Position numbers and translations under genes: made by a program. A stretch of 64,000 bases of DNA, taken from Natronolimnobius sp. AArcel1 (GTDB lineage Archaea; Halobacteriota; Halobacteria; Halobacteriales; Natrialbaceae). Below are positions 31,718 to 44,348 of this stretch, one piece after another. Position 1 is the stretch's first letter; every line of letters begins with the position of its first letter. The notes below the pieces were generated by a model, which saw only the letters and a program-made list of their open reading frames with translations, was not told where the DNA came from and searched no databases. Location: assembly GCF_011043775.1 (NCBI RefSeq), contig NZ_JAAKXY010000001.1:287617-351616 (forward strand). The letters are read 5' to 3'.

Positions 31718-32008
31718 ATGTCCGACGACGTAGAGACGATTACGTTCTCGATTGAAGCCGACGACGAGACGACTGACGACGTGACCATCCCGGCCGGCCT
31801 CGTCGACCTCGTTGCCGAAGGTGACCAGACCGCTGCCGAAACTGTCGGCGACCTCACACTTCTATCGTTCGCCAGCCGTGCCCACCACATCGTTCACCAC
31901 GGCCACGACGCCGACGAGGACCTCGAGGAACAGGAAGCACGCATCATGGACCTGTTCGAAGAACGGTTCGGCGTGACCTTCGGCGAAGCAACCGGCCACC
32001 AGCACTAA
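31718..32008 (+). CDS. Small conserved acidic haloarchaeal protein
   Basis: A 96-residue soluble protein, MSDDVETITFSIEADDETTD, with a helix IPAGLVDLVAEGDQTAAETV, a middle strand region LLSFASRAHHIVHHGHDADE that contains four His residues, and a C-terminal helix EARIMDLFEERFGVTFGEAT. A His-rich centre hints at metal binding, but I know no characterised relative. It matches the size and content of a haloarchaea-only family of unknown function. A TATA-like CATCTTTA lies about 30 bases before the ATG. Confidence 0.7.
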   Translation: MSDDVETITFSIEADDETTDDVTIPAGLVDLVAEGDQTAAETVGDLTLLSFASRAHHIVHHGHDADEDLEEQEARIMDLFEERFGVTFGEATGHQH

Positions 32009-32097: not shown

Positions 32098-35000
32098 CTA
32101 CATAAGCGCCGCTACCGTCTCGTTTTCGTCACCTGCAGGTTCGTCGGTGGTCTCTGCCCCCTCACCTGCCTGCTCGTCGGTCTCGTCCGAACCGGCAGTG
32201 TCAGCATCGCCGTCCGCGTCGTCAGCGTCGTCATCTGCGGGCGGGCCGTCGTCCGCAGGTGGCGTCTCTTCTTCCCCACCGTTCGTTGCGCCCGGATCGG
32301 TCTCGGTGTCGCCCTGCTCAGTGTCGTCGTCCTGTTCGTCCTCGTCAGTCACTGGTGGTTCATCGTCCGCCGTCGTATCGTCATCCGGTTCCGCAGTTTC
32401 TTCATCATCCTCGAACTCCGGTACATCTGGGTCGGCAAGGCCTTCGACCGTCGCCGTACCAGCGTCGTCTTCGGTCGCAATCTCGTGTTCAGACTCACCT
32501 TCTATCGCTTCAGAGGTGAACTCGACTGTCTCAGTCTCGCCGCCCTCGAGTTCCAGTTCCGTCTCATCGACGAGATCGCCGTCGACGCTGTAGGTGACGG
32601 TCTGGGTGCCCTCGAGGTCACCGACGTTCGTGATGTCTGCCTGGACAGTGACCTCGTCGCCGACGGAAGCGACTGGGTCAGCGAACACCGGTCCAACCGT
32701 GAACTCGGCAGCCTCACCGGCTTCCTCGATCGTCACCGGCACCTCGTCGCTGTCGTCTTCGCTCGCGACGACTGCGGTGTACTCGTCTGGCTCGATCTCG
32801 TCAGTGTCAGCGGTCAGCGTCACCGACTCAGTCTCGTCGCCCTCAAGTTCGACCGTCTGTGAGTCCACTTCGAGGTCGAGTTCGGCGAGCGAGAGCGTCA
32901 CGTTCTGCTCGCCGGCGTCGTCACCGACGTTCTCGATGTCGGCATCGACCTCGAGTGGCTCACCCTGCTCGACGGGCGAGTTCGTCTCGGTGATCGAGAC
33001 GCTGTAGTTAGCGGGGTCGTCGGGGTCGATCTCGCCCGCTGGCTCGGTTTCAGCGGTAAGCACCTCATCGTAGTCGTGGGTCGACATATCTACTTCCCAG
33101 ACGAGTCGCTCATCGTCGCTTTCGGGCGTCCAGAGGGCCATGAACTCGTGTTCACCGGGCTCGAGTTCGCCGACTGGGTCGTCTTCGGTCGTGCCCTCGA
33201 CGTACTCACTGATGACCGCGAGCATCGCGTCGTTCGGGTTGTCGTAGCCGAACGTGACCTCAATGCCGTCGTCATCCTCGAGTGGCTCGGTTTCTTCGAC
33301 GCCAATGTCGGGCTGTTCTGGCCGGATCTCCTCGAGACAGGTCTCAGAATCCGGGTGTGGGTGGTCGATACCAGCAAACGGGATCGCTTCGTCCGAACTG
33401 ATGCCCGTGATCGCAGTGCCGAAGTCGCCGTAGTCGTTGACGCCGACGGTCACTTCGTCGTCGCCAGTTTCTGTCACGCCGTCGTCCGCGTCGATGTCGA
33501 AGACGACTGTTCCGATAAACGGCGCTTCGATGTCGTCACCGACTGTGACGAAGTCCTCGATGATCGTGTTACCGAAGCCTGCAGAGTCGTAGAATCCGGT
33601 GCTAGCGGCGATCTGGTCGCCGTCCTCGAAGTTACCGGAGACTTCGGCTCGCGTGCAGTCAATGAACTCGACCATGAACGTCGGATCGACCGTGTACTCG
33701 AGCGACTCCGCAGCCAGCGTCTCACCCTCGTCCGTCGACTCGAGGGCGACATCGACCGTCGCGTTGTCCGTGAGTGGCTGGTCGAGGTCGACCGTTTCGT
33801 TATCGAGTCCGGTATCGGGCGCGAACGGCTCGGTCTCGACCAGTTCCGTCTCGTCAGCCGTCGCCGTCAGCACGTACTCGACCGAGGCGTTGGATTCTTG
33901 GACTGTCAACGTCTGTCCGTCACCGGTCTGGTCGGTCACATTGAGTTCCGCATCGTCATCTGGGTCTTCAGGATCGTCGGGATCGGTAACATCCTCGAGC
34001 GTGTACGTAATCGTCTCACTCGCCAGTGTCTCGTCGTCGTCGCTGGCGCGTACGGACACGTTGATTGTCGTCTCGTCCTCGAGTGCTGGCTCGAGGTCAA
34101 CCTCGAGATCGCTCACTGATTCGTCTGCGTCGAACGTCTCGCTGTCGACGCGCTCGCCGTCGTACTCGGCCGCGACGGTGTAGGATTCGCTCGCGTTCGC
34201 CTCGTCGACGAGGAGCGTCTCGCCGTCACCGGTCTGGTCGCTCACCGAGAGCGTTGCCTCCGGGTCTGGGTCCGGCTCAGGATCTGGCTCTTCCTCGTCC
34301 GCAATCGTCACGAACGCGCCGTCGAGAACCGGGCCACCGCTTGCGGTGACGTATGGCTCGTCGTCTGCGCCGTCGCTCTCGACGTACTGGAACGTCTGAT
34401 CGTCGGTCGTGTTGTGATGGACGACCGCGACAAGCGGCTGGCTCTCCTCGAGTGGTTCATCCAGTTCTATCTCGAGGTCTTCGTGGTCGCCGCTCTCGAG
34501 GTAGTCGGAGACGCCGATGACCGCGTCAGGGTCCACATCGGTTGCAACTCCATCGTAGACCGCGACAAAGCCGCCCTCCGAGAGGTCGACGTTGTCGACG
34601 ACGACACTCTCACCATCGGACTCCTGATCAGTGAACGAAATCGAGGCCGTTCCCTCGAGTTCGTCGATTTCTTCGATCTGCTGGCTGATCTCGATTTGGA
34701 CGTGTTGGATGATCTGCGTAACGTCGTCAGTGTCCTCGCCGACGGCGTACGCCGTTGCATCGGCTGCCGTATCTTGGGTGAGGATCTGCAGCTGCGTGAT
34801 GCTGATCTGCTGGTACTGGATCGCACGAGCAGTCTCCTCGCAGGCGGCCTGGGCCGCCGTCTGGATCTGCGTGACTGACGCCTCCTGGTGCTGGATGAGC
34901 GCCCCGCTCGAGGCACCGTGGGCGAGCGTCTGGATCTGTGTGATGTCGACGACCTGCGTCTGGGTGACTGCACCCTGACCAGCGCCGAATGCAGCGGCCT

Positions 35001-36378
35001 GAATCTGCTCGACTTCGACGACCTGCTGTTGCACTGCCGATTCGATTGCTCCTTTCGAGGAGCCAAGTGCCGCGTACTGTATCTGCGTGACCGAAACCTC
35101 CTGGTGCTGGACTAACGCACCCTGCGCACCACCATCAGCAGCGGCCTGAATCTGCTCGACGCTCGCGTCCTGGCTCTGCTGGATGGACCCCTTCGCCGCA
35201 CCGAAGGTCGCCTCCTGAATCTGGGTGATCGAAATGCGCTGGACCTGCTCGATCGTCACCGACTGGACCTGCGCCAGCGAGCCTTTACTCGCCCCGCGCG
35301 CTGCGGACTGGGTCTGCTCGACACTCACTTCCTGGCGCTGCTCGAGTGCGCCCTTCGCCGCACCCGTTGCTGCCTTCTGGATCTGCTTGATATCGACGCG
35401 CTGGTGCTGTTCAACCTCGATATCCTGCTCCTGTTCGAACACCGCCTCAGTGCTGCCCTCGAGCGCACCCGCTGCAGCTCCTGCCGCCGCGTGCTGGACG
35501 TGCTCGAGTGTGACCTGCTGGCGCTGCTCAACAGTTATTTTCTGATACTGCTCGAGGACGCCGTACGCTGCACCTTGTGCGGCTTCCTGAATCTTCGGCG
35601 TGCGGTCGATGTCTTTCTCGCCGGCCTCGCTCGCCGCACCCGCGGCCGCGCCGTAGGTTGCAACCTGAATCTGCTCGACAGTCACGCGCTGTTCTTGCGC
35701 GAGCGCGCCGTGGGTCGCGCCCCAAGTGGCACTCTGCATCTGGGTTGCGTTGACCGTCTGATGCTGGGCCAGTGCACCGTCAGTTGCGCCACCGACTGCG
35801 TACTGGACTTGTGTCGCGTTCACCTCCTGCTCTTGCATCATCGAGCCGTGAACCGCCCCTTTCGTCGCCTCCTGTACCTGCTCGGTGTCAGCCTCTTGAT
35901 GCTGGCTCGCTGCCGCGCTTGCCGCCTCGAGTGCCGCTGCTTGTTGTTCCTGTGTTACCTCGACGCCCTGTGCCTGGGCGAGTTCGACACCCTCCTCGAC
36001 ACCGGCTTCGACGGCATCAGGCGCGTCAGGCTCGTCCTGCGTGGCAGCTTCATCGGTTTCGGTTGCGTCGGCGTCCGCATCCGCCTCCACATCTGCGCCG
36101 TCCAATCCGATTGGCGACTCGAGTGCCACGATGTCGACGTCACCCTGGCTAGTCGTCACAGGGGTCGATTGGTCGTCGCTCTCGTTGCCGGCATCCTCGT
36201 CGTCCTGCTGTGCCTCGACGTCCGTCAGCACGTTGTCGTCATCTGTCGTCTCGTCGCCGTCGACAGTTCCGTCCGCGAACGGGCCCATCCCGCCACCAAG
36301 CAGTGGGAGTGCCACGACGCTCGTGACCATCAGTGCAGCAACCAGAACGACACCGAGTGCCCCCTGTTGCCACCTCAT
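32098..36378 (-). CDS. Giant secreted protein with glutamine-rich 23-residue repeats
   Basis: A 1426-residue surface protein. A Sec-type signal (MRWQQGALGVVLVAALMVTS, cleavage near residue 25) is followed by an acidic linker, then residues 136-570 made of 23-residue glutamine-rich repeats. Next is a DUF7282-type domain (about 577-693: VDNVDLSEGGFVAVYDGVAT), two more related beta domains that each begin SVSDQTGDGETLLV- or NVTDQTGDGQTLTV-like, a cysteine-containing module with CTRAEVSGNFEDGDQI, two CARDB-like domains (VEQGEPLEVDADIENVGDDA), and a 110-residue extremely acidic low-complexity tail ending VAALM. There is no C-terminal membrane anchor or PGF sorting motif. It is probably an adhesion or cell-surface structural protein. 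Confidence 0.85.
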   Translation of the reverse strand: MRWQQGALGVVLVAALMVTSVVALPLLGGGMGPFADGTVDGDETTDDDNVLTDVEAQQDDEDAGNESDDQSTPVTTSQGDVDIVALESPIGLDGADVEADADADATETDEAATQDEPDAPDAVEAGVEEGVELAQAQGVEVTQEQQAAALEAASAAASQHQEADTEQVQEATKGAVHGSMMQEQEVNATQVQYAVGGATDGALAQHQTVNATQMQSATWGATHGALAQEQRVTVEQIQVATYGAAAGAASEAGEKDIDRTPKIQEAAQGAAYGVLEQYQKITVEQRQQVTLEHVQHAAAGAAAGALEGSTEAVFEQEQDIEVEQHQRVDIKQIQKAATGAAKGALEQRQEVSVEQTQSAARGASKGSLAQVQSVTIEQVQRISITQIQEATFGAAKGSIQQSQDASVEQIQAAADGGAQGALVQHQEVSVTQIQYAALGSSKGAIESAVQQQVVEVEQIQAAAFGAGQGAVTQTQVVDITQIQTLAHGASSGALIQHQEASVTQIQTAAQAACEETARAIQYQQISITQLQILTQDTAADATAYAVGEDTDDVTQIIQHVQIEISQQIEEIDELEGTASISFTDQESDGESVVVDNVDLSEGGFVAVYDGVATDVDPDAVIGVSDYLESGDHEDLEIELDEPLEESQPLVAVVHHNTTDDQTFQYVESDGADDEPYVTASGGPVLDGAFVTIADEEEPDPEPDPDPEATLSVSDQTGDGETLLVDEANASESYTVAAEYDGERVDSETFDADESVSDLEVDLEPALEDETTINVSVRASDDDETLASETITYTLEDVTDPDDPEDPDDDAELNVTDQTGDGQTLTVQESNASVEYVLTATADETELVETEPFAPDTGLDNETVDLDQPLTDNATVDVALESTDEGETLAAESLEYTVDPTFMVEFIDCTRAEVSGNFEDGDQIAASTGFYDSAGFGNTIIEDFVTVGDDIEAPFIGTVVFDIDADDGVTETGDDEVTVGVNDYGDFGTAITGISSDEAIPFAGIDHPHPDSETCLEEIRPEQPDIGVEETEPLEDDDGIEVTFGYDNPNDAMLAVISEYVEGTTEDDPVGELEPGEHEFMALWTPESDDERLVWEVDMSTHDYDEVLTAETEPAGEIDPDDPANYSVSITETNSPVEQGEPLEVDADIENVGDDAGEQNVTLSLAELDLEVDSQTVELEGDETESVTLTADTDEIEPDEYTAVVASEDDSDEVPVTIEEAGEAAEFTVGPVFADPVASVGDEVTVQADITNVGDLEGTQTVTYSVDGDLVDETELELEGGETETVEFTSEAIEGESEHEIATEDDAGTATVEGLADPDVPEFEDDEETAEPDDDTTADDEPPVTDEDEQDDDTEQGDTETDPGATNGGEEETPPADDGPPADDDADDADGDADTAGSDETDEQAGEGAETTDEPAGDENETVAALM
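34669..35973 (-). repeat. Array of about 15 glutamine-rich 23-residue repeats
   Basis: Within the giant secreted protein, residues 136-570 repeat a unit with the consensus QxQxVxVxQIQxAAxGAxxGAL. Several copies are exactly 23 residues (for example beginning QHQTVNATQ, QRQEVSVEQ, QSQDASVEQ, QTQVVDITQ). Three places carry an 8-residue insertion of the same pattern (QxxVxxxQ), as in QVQSVTIEQ followed by VQRISITQ. Every unit starts with Gln-x-Gln and ends in Ala/Gly/Ser-rich turns, so an alternating beta strand and helix layer (a solenoid) is plausible. The DNA shows matching periodicity of 69 bases. Confidence 0.85.
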
Positions 36379-36846
36379 AGCGCACGCTCACTGGGTCCCA
36401 TCCGGGCTGTCCGCTGGCGGTTGCGTCCTGATCGAGGCCGGCCGTCTCGCGCGCGGTGGTCTCCCCGCCGGACCGAAACGCGCCACATCGCGCCCCAGCA
36501 CCGCTGTCTCGCCCCCGCGTTGCAATACCATCGGTCGTCAGCAGTTGCACTACCGGATTGCATTCGTTTCCGAGCACCCGACCGAATCGATGCATAAACA
36601 CGCCGGTCGTTTCGGTTAGGCAGCGGATACAATCCCTGATTACTCACCGTTTCAGGGGCAAAAATTGACTTATTCAGCCGCTCACCGCCTCCTCGAGTGT
36701 GATTTCACGTCTGTCATGAATTGCCTCGAGTAGCCGGCAAACTGAGAGGAAGCGCGGTGTTTCGTCGGTCACTTGTTGCCTTGAACCTGCAAGCCATCGA
36801 CACAGCGAGCGTTCTCCGACAGCCGTTTTCGTAAACCGAAGTTTTG
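36379..36846. other. Intergenic stretch with one possible 32-codon ORF
   Basis: About 470 bases between the giant protein gene and bioY. Most open frames here look random. On the minus strand, a GTG at 36770-36772 starts a 32-codon frame ending at 36674 (TDETPRFLSVCRLLEAIHDR, then REITLEEAVSG) whose composition is protein-like, perhaps a truncated regulator remnant. The rest should hold the promoter of the giant protein and of bioY. Confidence 0.35.
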
Positions 36847-36873
36847 ATGGCTGTTTACGAGCGAGCCACTGGC

Positions 36874-37464
36874 ATGGCAACTGAACAGCAGTCGGTCGAC
36901 CTCGTCGACGGCGATGTCGTCCGGTCGTTTGCACGCGCAGCGCTGCTTGCCGTCCTCATCGGCGCATCTGCGCCCGTCGCGATTCCGATTGGACCGGCAC
37001 CGATCACGCTGCAAGTACTGTTTGTCTTCCTAGCTGGGCTCGTGCTCGGGCCACTGTGGGGCAGTTTTTCGATGGTGCTCTATCTCACCGCGGGCGCAGT
37101 CGGCGTGCCCGTCTTCGCCGGGATGGAATCCGGCTTTGGCGTCCTCGTCGGCGAGACGGCCGGCTACCTCTGGTCGTACCCCATCGCTGCGGGCCTCATC
37201 GGCTTGTTCGTCCACCGCGGAACTGAGCTTCGTGATCCCGCCGAACAGTCCCTCGCGGTCGTCGTTGTCGCGCTTCTCGCCGGACTGATCGTTATCTACG
37301 GCATGGGTGTCGGCCACATGATGTGGCTGCTTCATCTCGACCTCTGGGAGGCGCTTCTCACCGGCATGGTGTTCTTTCTCCCCGGTGATTTCCTCAAACT
37401 GGTCGCCGCAATCCTTATCGTCAAAAGCGGCCAGCTTGCAGTTGGAACCCACGAGTCCAGATGA
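36874..37464 (+). CDS. bioY: Biotin ECF transporter substrate-binding component BioY
   Basis: A roughly 196-residue S-component membrane protein with about six helices. Family hallmarks are APVAIPIGPAPITLQVLFVF (the conserved P-x-P-I-T-x-Q loop that lines the biotin site), LAGLVLGPLWGSFSMVLYL and VGETAGYLWSYPIAA. BioY binds biotin in the membrane and is energised by an EcfT/EcfA module. I use the ATG at 36874 (MATEQQSVDLVD); an in-frame ATG at 36847 would add nine residues. The next gene overlaps its stop by four bases, and the T component follows, so all three form one operon. Confidence 0.9.
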   Translation: MATEQQSVDLVDGDVVRSFARAALLAVLIGASAPVAIPIGPAPITLQVLFVFLAGLVLGPLWGSFSMVLYLTAGAVGVPVFAGMESGFGVLVGETAGYLWSYPIAAGLIGLFVHRGTELRDPAEQSLAVVVVALLAGLIVIYGMGVGHMMWLLHLDLWEALLTGMVFFLPGDFLKLVAAILIVKSGQLAVGTHESR

Positions 37465-39916: not shown

Positions 39917-40642
39917 ATGAGTTACGATCCATCAGCAGGAGACGACGACAGTGAGAGCCTCGTCCACGATGAGTGGCCACTCGATGACTACGAGGCCCCT
40001 GACCGAGAGCCGACCTACATCGGCATCATGAACCCCGACGAGGAGCAAAAATCGACGGCACTCTTCTACGACAACCGGAACGAGACCATCTTTCAGGCCG
40101 ACGTCGAAGAAGAAGAGCAGCGGTTCGTCAGCCGCGACGACACCGAACGTAACCTCGAGCCAACCGACACGCTCGGCGAGGTACTCGAGGACTTCGGTGA
40201 CCGACTCGAGTGGGACTCGCTGTCGTCGTTCGGCCGCGAGCAGTTACAGAGTGACAACGGGGACACAGAGACTGACACGACCAGTCCCGATTCGATCACG
40301 TTCACTCAGAGCAACGTCAGCGAAACCGCAGCTCACGACCTGGAATTTTCGGGCTCCTATCTGTACCAGCACGCAGACCAGGAACTCACCGTCGAACGCA
40401 CGTTCGAAATCACATACGACGACCCCACAACCCCACACAGTGCGGTTGCAGTAGTTACTGACCGGCTTTTGGAAACGAGCGACGACGCCGGAACGCTGGA
40501 CACCGACGCCGACAAACTCGAGGAACACGAGCGCACGTTCGAAATCGACCTCGATGCGAGCGACCCCGAGCGACAACTCGAGACGCGACTCGAACAGGCG
40601 TGTAAAGACTGGCACACGGCCCACGCCGACCCAACAGTGTGA
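39917..40642 (+). CDS. Acidic soluble hypothetical protein
   Basis: A 241-residue protein starting MSYDPSAGDDDSESLVHDEW. It is very acidic throughout. The first part has PTYIGIMNPDEEQKSTALFY and DNRNETIFQADVEEEEQRFV, followed by a helix-prone stretch and a Thr/Asp-rich linker. A later part reads YQHADQELTVERTFEITYDD. No catalytic motif, signal peptide or membrane segment is present. It is probably cytoplasmic and haloarchaea-specific. The upstream region contains a TAAAATTAACT promoter-like AT-rich element. Family not recognised. Confidence 0.6.
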   Translation: MSYDPSAGDDDSESLVHDEWPLDDYEAPDREPTYIGIMNPDEEQKSTALFYDNRNETIFQADVEEEEQRFVSRDDTERNLEPTDTLGEVLEDFGDRLEWDSLSSFGREQLQSDNGDTETDTTSPDSITFTQSNVSETAAHDLEFSGSYLYQHADQELTVERTFEITYDDPTTPHSAVAVVTDRLLETSDDAGTLDTDADKLEEHERTFEIDLDASDPERQLETRLEQACKDWHTAHADPTV

Positions 40643-40838
40643 CCACGAGAGTCGAAACCCACCCTCGAGGCACTCGTGGCGTTACGGACAGGGATCGGTC
40701 ACGAAACGATGAGGTCAAACCATTGTTCCACACAACAGATAGTCTCCGGTAAATTTAACTCGGGATAGAAATAATACTCATATGGCGAGTGAGCACAGCC
40801 GTACTGTGTCCTCAGCCAGACACCGACTCGGTTATCGT

Positions 40839-40991
40839 TCACTCCTCGCCACGATTACTTCCGCGTCTTGTGCGTCTCACTCGAGAGACATCTACATCGA
40901 AACCGCTGATCCCGAGTTCATTAAAGAGGGTCAGTAATTCACTGCCGGCTGATTCATCAAATTCAATCCATGAAAAGACCTGAGGATACGT
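40839..40991 (-). pseudogene. Fragment of a protein-coding gene, no start codon
   Basis: The minus strand from 40991 to the stop at 40839-40841 reads a protein-like sequence of about 50 residues, TYPQVFSWIEFDESAGSELL then TLFNELGISGFDVDVSRVRR, with a stop directly upstream and no ATG, GTG or TTG at its head. Composition suggests a remnant of a larger gene rather than a shadow. The surrounding 40643-41074 stretch is otherwise non-coding and includes an AT-rich part before the K+ channel gene. Confidence 0.3.
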
Positions 40992-41074
40992 CTAGTGGGT
41001 AGCTCAATAGTGGTAGGTCAGACCAGTCAACCAACCTCAGAACAATCATATAGCCTTAATTGAATGTTTGCCAC

Positions 41075-41887
41075 ATGAGCGTGGGGCGTTACTCGGCAAC
41101 TCGCCGATGGACTTGGGAGCTTTTCGAACCAGATCTCGGTGGGAAACTTGGGTACTACACGGACTGGTTTATCATGACACTGATCGCCGTGAATGTAGCG
41201 ATGGTCATTCTTGAAACGGTTGATGCGTTGGCTATCGCTTACAGCGGGGCGTTCTACTATTTCGAGTTGTTCTCGGTGGCTGTCTTTACCATCGAGTATC
41301 TTGGTCGCGTCTGGTCAGCTGTCGATAACCCTGCCTACGAGGGGCCAATCACTGGGCGACTCGAGTTTGCGTCGCGCCCACTGCTAATCGTAGACTTTCT
41401 GGCAATCATCCCCTTCTATTTGACAGTAGTAGGAGTACAAGCAGATCTACGGTTCCTCCGAGCCCTCCGGCTTATTCGTCTCTTTCGACTGTTGAAGCTC
41501 GCCCGGTACTCAACAGCGATGCAATCGTTTGGGTTGGTTATCGAAGAGAAAAAAGAGAAGCTTATACTGGCATTCTCAGCGAATTTACTACTGTTAGTCA
41601 TTGCCTCGAGTGCAATGTATTACATCGAAAACCCCCACCAACCAGAGGCTTTTTCGTCGATTCCGCAGGCGTTCTGGTGGGGTGTTGCAACACTGACGAC
41701 AGTTGGCTACGGTGACGTTCATCCGATCACTCCACTAGGACAGTTCGTTGGTGCAGTTGTTGCAATGTTGGGTATCGGTCTCTTTGCACTCCCTGCATCA
41801 ATCCTTGCCTCCGGGTTTATTGAACAAGCTGAAAATGATGAGAAATCCGCCGACTACTGCCCCCATTGTGGAGAGAAGATCGAGTAG
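41075..41887 (+). CDS. Voltage-gated potassium channel
   Basis: A 270-residue 6-TM Kv-like channel. Helices 1-3 occupy about residues 30-115, S4 is a charged repeat RFLRALRLIRLFRLLKLARY (Arg/Lys every third residue, 126-145), and the pore holds the filter TTVGYGD (208-214) with WWGVATL before it. A C-terminal CPHCGEKIE is half a zinc ribbon; whether the zinc is shared with a second subunit is unknown. KvAP and MVP are archaeal relatives. The ATG at 41075 is preferred to the TTG at 41060. It is less G+C-rich than the core genes around it and lies in a probable accessory segment. Confidence 0.92.
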   Translation: MSVGRYSATRRWTWELFEPDLGGKLGYYTDWFIMTLIAVNVAMVILETVDALAIAYSGAFYYFELFSVAVFTIEYLGRVWSAVDNPAYEGPITGRLEFASRPLLIVDFLAIIPFYLTVVGVQADLRFLRALRLIRLFRLLKLARYSTAMQSFGLVIEEKKEKLILAFSANLLLLVIASSAMYYIENPHQPEAFSSIPQAFWWGVATLTTVGYGDVHPITPLGQFVGAVVAMLGIGLFALPASILASGFIEQAENDEKSADYCPHCGEKIE

Positions 41888-41889
41888 AG

Positions 41890-43539
41890 TTATGAAAACT
41901 CTCGCTTGAGAGCTTCTTTTGCAATCTCTGGTTCTAATACCTCGGAGCCATAGAACACCGATAATGGAAGCTCATATCCTTCTTCGGCATATGTCTCAAT
42001 CCAATATTCTGCAAATTGTTTGAGATCACTTGCCTTTACTAGACGAATATCGATACCACCGACTTGCATTTCGAGTTTCTTTGCGTTCTGCTTTGCGTTG
42101 TCCGTGAAATCAGGTGCAATGATAAGGAACCATTCGACCTGATGTTGTTGGCTTTTTGTATCGATATAGTTCTTGATCTTACTTTGTGTATTGCTCCCTA
42201 GTTTGAACTTGTTGATACGCCGCTTGTTGTCCCATAAGAGCCATTTCCCATCCTGTTCAATCTCTCCATCTGCAACAATCCCACTCGCCTTCTGGCCCAG
42301 AAGTTCTGTTCCATCGACATTGAATATCTCTTTGAAAATCTCACTCGTTGCCTGTTCAAATAGCATATCCATCTTTCTAGATGGATCATCTTCGTCAACG
42401 ACCTGCTGTAGCTGTGGTGGGATTCTCTCGACATTTCCATCTGAGATATCCTCATAACACTTCAAGAAGAGTTCTGCAGCAGCTTCCTCATCATCGGTTG
42501 TGATCTGTTTTTGTGATTGCTCGAAATACTCGATGGTCGCTTCAATCATCTCGTCGGTTTTTTGCTTGTGAGCGTCCAGACTATACTCGTCAACGATTCC
42601 TTTCAATTCCTTTTTAGTTAGTCCCTCTGCGAGCAACTGACTCGGAAAAATGCCAGCCTTGACGAGACTCTCGCGGCGCTTATCGTTGCGGCCTTTGGTT
42701 CCTGTCTCGACACCGAACGTGTTCCGAGCATCTACAAGCGTTTTCTGTTTGTCGAATGGTTCCAGTGTCTCGAGCATCTGTAGATAATTCTCCTCAGACA
42801 TCTCATAATAGAGCCAGTCCCGGATATAGTCGATATAGTCCTCAGGAATGCCAACTAATTCGTTTGTATCCTCGGTGTTGACTTCATAGATGATGGCCTG
42901 TTCTTGCAACGACCATAGGCCCTTCTCAATCGTATCTAACGCATGCTCAGGCTTCTCCGAGCGAGAAACTTTTGGGAACCGTCCAATTGCTGAAAGTCGT
43001 TTAAAGAAATCAAACCAAGTATAGTATTCGTGTTTCTTTTCCTTGGCCCTGTTGTGGAGTTCGAAGTAACTATAGACCATATGGAGTTCGGAATCGTACA
43101 CATCTGAGCCATAGTCAACTGCTGCCTTCGCAAGGTGGAGCAGTTCATCACTATCATCAAAATCGTCCTCACTATAGTCATTGATGAGGTCCTGCTGCCA
43201 AGATTGGACACTCTCAAGTAGAATCTCCTTTTCCATGTTAAAATCCAGTTGTTGAATTAGTGTGCGGAGAATCCCATATCGAATCACCAAGGCCTGATAA
43301 GAAGAGTCGTTGACTGAGTCGAGTCGTGGTGGTGTAAAATTATTGAGTTCAGCATCCAATCGCGTGTCCTCCGCTAATGCTGGAACATATGTCTCGAAAT
43401 ATCGCTCGCGGTTATCGAAACCGTCGTGTTTGAACGATTCTGGATCAAACGATTCGGTTTTTTCCTTAGTCCTATCCTTGAGAAACCGTTTTCGCTCATA
43501 ACTATTCCATTGAGTATCAATCAAATCACGTAATTTCAT
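41890..43539 (-). CDS. FokI-like PD-(D/E)XK nuclease with helical N-terminus
   Basis: A 549-residue protein, noticeably AT-rich and lysine-rich for this genome. The C-terminal 130 residues resemble the FokI cleavage domain: GQKASGIVADGEIEQDGKW with the first acidic residue (D424), WDNK giving the DxK pair (D437, K439), a Lys/Arg-rich loop, then FLIIAPDFTDNAKQ and GIDIRLVKASDL as the later strands, ending in the FY...EIAKEAL tail. E395 (in FEQATSEIF) may be the additional acid. Upstream, LTKKELKGIVDEYSL (308-322) is SAP-like, and the first 290 residues are helical of unknown fold. It may be a restriction or defence nuclease; no methyltransferase is adjacent. ATG at 43537-43539. Confidence 0.8.
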   Translation of the reverse strand: MKLRDLIDTQWNSYERKRFLKDRTKEKTESFDPESFKHDGFDNRERYFETYVPALAEDTRLDAELNNFTPPRLDSVNDSSYQALVIRYGILRTLIQQLDFNMEKEILLESVQSWQQDLINDYSEDDFDDSDELLHLAKAAVDYGSDVYDSELHMVYSYFELHNRAKEKKHEYYTWFDFFKRLSAIGRFPKVSRSEKPEHALDTIEKGLWSLQEQAIIYEVNTEDTNELVGIPEDYIDYIRDWLYYEMSEENYLQMLETLEPFDKQKTLVDARNTFGVETGTKGRNDKRRESLVKAGIFPSQLLAEGLTKKELKGIVDEYSLDAHKQKTDEMIEATIEYFEQSQKQITTDDEEAAAELFLKCYEDISDGNVERIPPQLQQVVDEDDPSRKMDMLFEQATSEIFKEIFNVDGTELLGQKASGIVADGEIEQDGKWLLWDNKRRINKFKLGSNTQSKIKNYIDTKSQQHQVEWFLIIAPDFTDNAKQNAKKLEMQVGGIDIRLVKASDLKQFAEYWIETYAEEGYELPLSVFYGSEVLEPEIAKEALKREFS

Positions 43540-44348
43540 ATGAATAAGACAATCAGGGACATACACACAGATATAACTTATTGTCTATTTGATTGCTTAG
43601 TCTACTGAATTGGAATCTAACCTCGAGTTTACACTCTCAAAAGGATAACAAGCCATTCTGGTAGCTCCACTAATTGTTTAAGATCCATCTAATTCTACGA
43701 TTCACTCCACAGTCGTCTTGTCGAATACAACTCCAAACCGGTAGACGTCTCATCGTCCTCGAGATCGAGGAATACCACCAATCCGTATCGGCTTCAGAGC
43801 TTTCCCTCAAGCAGTGCTATGTCCAATGCGGTCGCCGGCTGATCACACCCGCAGTCATCTCACCCCCACACCTTCGTGTGGGTTTCCAAATTACTTGGGA
43901 AGCACAGCTAATACAGATAGTCTCGATTTTCGAAATGGCGAGGGGTGGGGGACTGTCGTTGCCACCGGCTCCCGTGCGAAGACATCACCACCTCGCCAAC
44001 TACGGAGATGGACACGCAGCCATCTTCGAGAATCCCACCACCTATAGTTCTCGAGCAGCGCTTTAGAACGGAGAATCCACGAAAAGAGAACGTTCAGATG
44101 TGCTCTTCGCTGTGACTGATCCAGTCCTCAATCTTGGCAACGCCCTCGTCAGGCGTCTGCCTCCCTGTAATCGAATCCCGCTCGAGTGGGGCTTCGAAAC
44201 AGCCAGCTACCATGCCGGCGCATCCCCGTTACCCGCAATTTCGGCCTGTGATTCATGACGACTTGTGGGGGTGCTCGAGGATGTGAAACCCCACGCAGGT
44301 CTCGAGGTGTTCGTCTCTGAGACTGGGATTATAAGTAATTTAGTAGGG
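43540..44348. other. AT-rich intergenic stretch with hairpin and ORF fragments
   Basis: About 800 bases upstream of the nuclease gene with no gene I can support. A perfect hairpin, CCCACAC (43865-43871) with GTGTGGG (43876-43882) around CTTC, is present. On the minus strand, 44094-44213 holds a 39-codon ORF (MVAGCFEAPLERDSITGRQT, then PDEGVAKIEDWISHSEEHI) that looks like a decayed gene end. This looks like eroded accessory DNA next to a tRNA. Confidence 0.4.

Follow-up and report, generated by a model that had tools for sequence, protein, structure and literature searches.

Regular alpha-helical tandem repeats are found in TAL effectors and in designed helical repeat proteins (8ugc, the DHR series). 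Each TAL unit folds into two helices within 34 residues, and the repeats bind DNA. The Curlin repeats of CsgA are exported, glutamine-bearing and 22-23 residues long, and leucine-rich repeats have a unit length near 23 with a ladder-like extended stretch. The best structural matches of the predicted model of the array described here are 8ugc and TAL effectors. In contrast to the TAL repeats, however, the array has units of 23 residues with one predicted helix and follows a putative export signal, and its profile matched no PDB chain (0 matches at E ≤ 10). The array resembles Curlin in its glutamine-bearing units of similar length and in its predicted export, but shows a helix-capping pattern and an Ala/Gly core. 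It differs from leucine-rich repeats in its core, which is made of Ala, Gly and Gln where theirs is of Leu. Pfam searches of the whole protein at E ≤ 1 returned DUF7282 and CARDB only, with no Curlin and no leucine-rich repeat model, and the array matched no Pfam or NCBIfam family at that threshold and no PHROG. Weak matches of single relatives to Pfam (best E of 0.022) and NCBIfam (best E of 0.13) were taken as chance. The 23-residue motif is an uncatalogued, new repeat family. Haloarchaeal surface proteins with DUF7282 and CARDB share the C-terminal modules of the protein; however, such matches in its own genome, which holds a single array, cover only aa 570 onward. No papers were found on DUF7282, and searches on haloarchaeal secreted repeats, solenoids, amyloid biofilms and adhesins returned no description of the repeat in titles or the starts of abstracts, which leaves its absence from the literature unproven. 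Excerpts of a review of alpha-solenoids (PMC11514114) describe no similar archaeal repeat, and a 2026 study of a haloarchaeal protease-activated precursor concerns, in its excerpted text, HFX_0892 (PMC12893001). We interpret the array, with a probability of about 0.55, as a haloarchaea-specific exported alpha-solenoid with one helix per unit, serving as an envelope or extracellular binding module.

The protein is encoded in the window, the whole 64,000-nucleotide stretch of Natronolimnobius sp. AArcel1 that was analysed, with the following layout:

36844..37464, forward strand: BioY gene, divergent conserved neighbour, outside the protein
32098..36378, reverse strand: whole ORF, putatively exported multidomain protein of 1426 aa, ATG start
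36307..36378, reverse strand: N-terminal hydrophobic signal-like segment, aa 1-24 (hydropathy; Sec-type by eye)
36025..36306, reverse strand: acidic, low-complexity linker, aa 25-118 (sequence)
34663..36024, reverse strand: repeat array including end caps, aa 119-572
34894..35904, reverse strand: 13 GAxxGA-anchored 23-residue units with loop insertions, aa 159-495
34306..34647, reverse strand: DUF7282, aa 578-691 (Pfam E 1.9e-36)
32464..32676, reverse strand: CARDB, aa 1235-1305 (Pfam E 9.9e-7)
32101..32448, reverse strand: acidic C-terminal tail without hydrophobic anchor, aa 1311-1426 (sequence, hydropathy)
31718..32008, forward strand: DUF7545 gene, conserved neighbour, outside the protein

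The DUF7282 and CARDB domains that the first-pass annotation had placed downstream of the array were both recovered by Pfam. The DUF7282 match scores 125 bits against a curated cut-off of 27, making this a DUF7282-containing protein, and a second DUF7282 stretch is present besides aa 578-691. The signal peptide proposed ahead of the array agrees with a hydrophobic, signal-like start (mean hydropathy of 2.69 over an N-terminal 17-residue stretch), but the segment could be either a Sec-type signal, as judged by eye, or an uncleaved anchor. A similar segment was observed in the listed homologues with at least three units, except for one broken copy (L118) and, weakly, L131. A PGF-CTERM or archaeosortase-type end is absent from the protein, the tail being acidic without a C-terminal hydrophobic stretch and basic tail (best 17-residue mean hydropathy of -0.58 in the last 45 residues). 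Seven relatives have a C-terminal hydrophobic end and a basic tail, and the NCBIfam PGF models gave no match in the four of them that were scanned. Separately, aa 900-1115 (33034-33681, reverse strand), which has no Pfam name, turns up again in further ORFs from related genomes, for example at G030:C1:491832-492764 in a genome without an array match.

The identity of the array with itself is 0.275 at a lag of 23 residues and 0.186, 0.186 and 0.173 at lags of 31, 46 and 8. The highest value among 2000 composition-preserving shuffles (lags 5-79) was 0.175; thus, no shuffle reached the values at lags 23 and 31, while that at lag 8 stays below the shuffle maximum. The repeat array is real, and the lag-23 identity against the shuffles shows that units alike in length and sequence follow one another in tandem. 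The GAxxGA anchor occurs in 13 units, flanked by degenerate units at both ends of the array, so the earlier count of about 15 is fair. The unit consensus, Q1 x Q3 x V5 [STDN]6 V7 x Q9 [IV]10 Q11 x A13 A14 x G16 A17 x x G20 A21 L22 x23, agrees with the QxQxVxVxQIQxAAxGAxxGAL read initially, with G16 and G20 fixed by the chosen anchor. Eight-residue insertions, which had been credited with the rhythm of the units, are present and give spacings of 31; the identity at lag 8 alone does not exceed the shuffles. Spacings of 26 also occur.

The sequence of the units carries the marks of a helix start. A set of 784 units, 735 of them distinct, was collected from 65 ORFs. Because the anchor fixes positions 16 and 20 and restricts positions 13, 14, 17 and 21, and partly 9 and 11, these columns are not independent evidence, whereas positions 5-8, 10 and 12 are free. 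Among the 735 distinct units, position 6 is S, T, D or N in 82%, and hydrophobic residues occupy position 5 in 91% and position 10 in 90%, as in a staple. Q9, the capping-box residue, is present in 82%, in a column partly shaped by the filter. Proline occurs 13 times at position 7 and 24 times at position 8; the unfiltered positions 10, 12, 15, 18 and 19 contain none. An N-cap, proline at N1 or N2 and a hydrophobic staple are the textbook marks of where a helix begins, and here this signature coincides with the helix starts of the predicted model described below. Glutamine-poor units still start like helices, e.g. TDPERLRRATAGAIHGTL. One relative (L065:411-1631, forward strand) has units that lack most glutamines and carry long Gly/Asp loops, with the helix-like part kept. 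The periodicity over positions 7-23 barely favours a helix (0.42 at 100 degrees vs. 0.41 at 160 degrees), which counts against the helical reading. Positions 1-8 alternate strictly in conservation, in a strand-like manner (0.86 at 180 degrees), and thus the loop itself may be extended. A helix plus an extended loop is the simplest reconciliation of the capping and alternation data. Charge pairs between a unit and the next or next but one, taken from related and hence not independent units, did not separate parallel from antiparallel arrangements.

The best AlphaFold2 model (16 sequences) has a mean pLDDT of 59.3 and a pTM of 0.52; the means of the other four are 48.2, 42.6, 39.1 and 32.3. The best model reaches block pLDDT values of 73-94 over aa 119-278, and this confident part shows one ~16-residue helix per repeat (e.g. 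aa 188-203) and no strands, whereas residues 244-366 of the model fall under 50. The second half of the array modelled alone gave mostly strands at a pLDDT of 34.5, which we would regard as no answer, and the full fold is unproven because this half has no confident model. The structure prediction proposed in the first-pass annotation yielded a helical confident part and no confident disorder, with low confidence over half the array. The new solenoid suggested there is plausible, given the uncatalogued motif, the strict 23-residue period and the single helix that each repeat forms where the model is confident. A beta-like reading of the Q-x-Q ladder is not supported by the confident part, in which Q1 and Q3 sit in the loop and Q9 and Q11 in the first helix turns, and the strict ladder is probably of another kind.

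The beta ladder as the first picture lost ground to the half-model, which is helical, and to the statistics on helix capping, and it is retained as a rival because the second-half model draws strands. The array would then be a curli-like beta-solenoid, or a functional amyloid of the extracellular matrix, which would suit those strands and the unit length of 23. Congo red and thioflavin T bind Haloferax volcanii biofilms, as excerpts of one study report (PMC4180959), in keeping with such an amyloid. However, the strands come from the low-scoring model while the confident part is helical, the units have the helix-capping and proline pattern, glutamine-less units with long Gly/Asp loops survive in L065, and a Pfam Curlin match is missing. 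We consider a curli-like fold very unlikely.

Foldseek found no solved structure matching at E ≤ 1e-3. The nearest matches were 8ugc, a designed flat helix-turn-helix repeat (E of 2e-3), and TAL effectors. Comparison by VIA gave a Z of 9.3 and an r.m.s.d. of 7.3 over 211 residues for 8ugc, middling for helical repeats according to the tool's note, and a Z of 3.9-4.9 with an r.m.s.d. of 3.9-9.3 for the TAL effectors. Leucine-rich repeat or curlin folds were not among the structural matches shown by Foldseek and VIA, an absence that does not exclude them. An alpha/extended solenoid of the leucine-rich repeat type would run residues 1-7 as an extended strand back along a parallel 16-residue helix, with the glutamine and valine ladders placed inside. 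Such a fold would account for the strict alternation of positions 1-8 and for the greater likeness of units at lag 23 than at lag 46, and by arithmetic the seven-residue extended stretch (about 24 Å) matches the 16-residue helix in length. However, AlphaFold2 gives those loops no strand, the nearest structures are helix-turn-helix designs and TAL repeats, albeit at a large r.m.s.d., and no Pfam leucine-rich repeat model matched the protein, so we consider this fold unlikely. Rather doubtful is the joint reading of a new architecture in which parallel 16-residue helices and extended strands with glutamine ladders form a module, evolved in haloarchaea for extracellular binding or assembly, that also occurs as a stand-alone exported protein, Ala, Gly and Gln building in place of Leu and Asn.

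Comparison of the units at the DNA and protein levels bears on the age of the array. At the DNA level, Tandem Repeats Finder detected no tandem array across the repeats, its single match (two copies of 24 bp, 34470-34516) lying outside the array, and the DNA identity between units averages 0.55. Among 18 family members across genera, units at the same place share 71% identity vs. 42% for different units, a comparison of 14 listed units of which one (aa 289) is an overlapping false register. The array compared with that of the closest relative (L038) shows a dN of 0.046, a dS of 0.42 and a dN/dS of 0.109. As judged from the sequences, the repeat is protein-level, old and strongly conserved, because a DNA tandem array is lacking, identity is kept place by place and dN/dS is low. 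A recent repeat expansion was ruled out by the place-wise conservation and the low mean DNA identity between units. Indels within the 13 units are confined to positions 22, 23 and 1 in 17 relatives, with all others in the linkers. The unit number is mostly 12-14 in homologues of its own family and 7-11 in a few, ranging from 4 to 23 over all listed ORFs. A disordered or flexible Ala/Gln/Gly spacer with no fixed fold would be in line with the low complexity of the array, in which 210 of 450 residues are A, Q or E, and with the lack of a confident model for half of it. However, the place-by-place conservation across genera (71% for each unit, dN/dS of 0.11), the 12-14 units in most own-family homologues counted and the restriction of indels to loops argue against it, and we consider such a spacer very unlikely. 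In 12 of the 13 units, conservation is on average higher at buried-type than at exposed positions, the exception being the unit at 254 (0.76 vs. 0.74).

In the exported alpha-solenoid that we favour, each 23-residue unit would form one ~16-residue helix (positions 7-22), followed by a seven-residue loop with Q1, Q3 and V5. We infer a helix in every unit and solenoid packing, in which the Ala/Gly positions would allow very tight packing of neighbouring helices and the glutamines would tie together the loops and helix starts of adjacent units through putative bonds. The ~13 units would stiffen the N-terminal end of the chain, which runs on into the DUF7282 and CARDB modules. A variable stripe (positions 2, 4, 8, 12, 15, 19 and 23), nearly fixed in a few units, may provide a binding face, with another envelope or extracellular molecule as its likely partner. 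Two exposed residues of the unit at 205, W219 and H223, are nearly fixed (88% each), which suggests a specific partner. An extracellular interaction scaffold is proposed because some exposed residues are so conserved.

A genome search with a 20-row alignment (A1) at E ≤ 1e-10 found array matches in 121 of 392 genomes of the order, or roughly one in three of the haloarchaea sampled. These comprise 79 of the 96 genomes of its own family and 42 of the 296 others, the latter from four other families. Across the phylum, 13 of 294 sampled genomes matched, all within the same order. Among contigs from bacteria and archaea, at least 15 loci were confirmed, all haloarchaeal among the matches listed, with Natronorubrum, Natrialba, Natrinema and Natronococcus as the named relatives there. 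These relatives, the composition and the gene order fit a haloarchaeal genome of the Natrialbaceae type. Two matches in plasmid records, in Halobaculum marinum and Halomicrococcus gelatinilyticus, are annotated as hypothetical proteins. Two array copies (L118:5460-6485 and L119) lie on one 326,684-bp replicon; that of L118 is disrupted by a frame change and ends early. A virus origin was rejected, with no relative in viral contigs, none in phage records queried with the stand-alone member, and no PHROG.

The array gene is flanked by the DUF7545 and BioY genes, with order and strands kept, in 35 of 46 loci. No array was seen at two of the 46 (L067, L068), and the set includes at least one genome twice (L062, L077). 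Further neighbours within its own family are an ABC ATPase and a transmembrane partner (CbiO/CbiQ by eye). The DUF7545/BioY order is absent from the named loci outside its own family (L079, L081-L083). The flanking order looks inherited and by itself reveals no function, and a function read from the BioY, ABC ATPase or DUF7545 neighbours was set aside. Elsewhere in the window, the G+C content drops to 0.525 and 0.448 within 40001-44000, compared with about 0.6 around. This region contains an ion-channel gene (41060-41887, forward strand) and an ORF of 558 residues without a Pfam match (41890-43566, reverse strand).

The array follows the signal in the members examined, whereas the modules after it differ: besides DUF7282 and CARDB in the present protein, and in relatives from other genera, L063 has TSP3 repeats with a CAP domain, L081 has TSP3 and L079 has three DUF7282 stretches, while Ig-like or beta-helix-like stretches, as judged by eye, occur in others. 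A stand-alone ORF of 227 residues (L129:4989-5669, reverse strand) consists of nearly only the array behind a twin-arginine-like signal. Given these differing modules and the stand-alone member, the array is an independent module and not a linker fitted to DUF7282. From its sequence, the array is read as a cell-surface scaffold for interactions, or a spacer, with adhesion, matrix building and fibres, anticipated at first reading, as possible uses. The stand-alone member is a small candidate for structural work. The uncatalogued repeat family would be an addition to the few extracellular repeat proteins of archaea. Should the fold be confirmed, it would be a compact Ala/Gly/Gln solenoid working in high salt and useful in protein design, as well as a concrete candidate scaffold for the envelope or biofilms.
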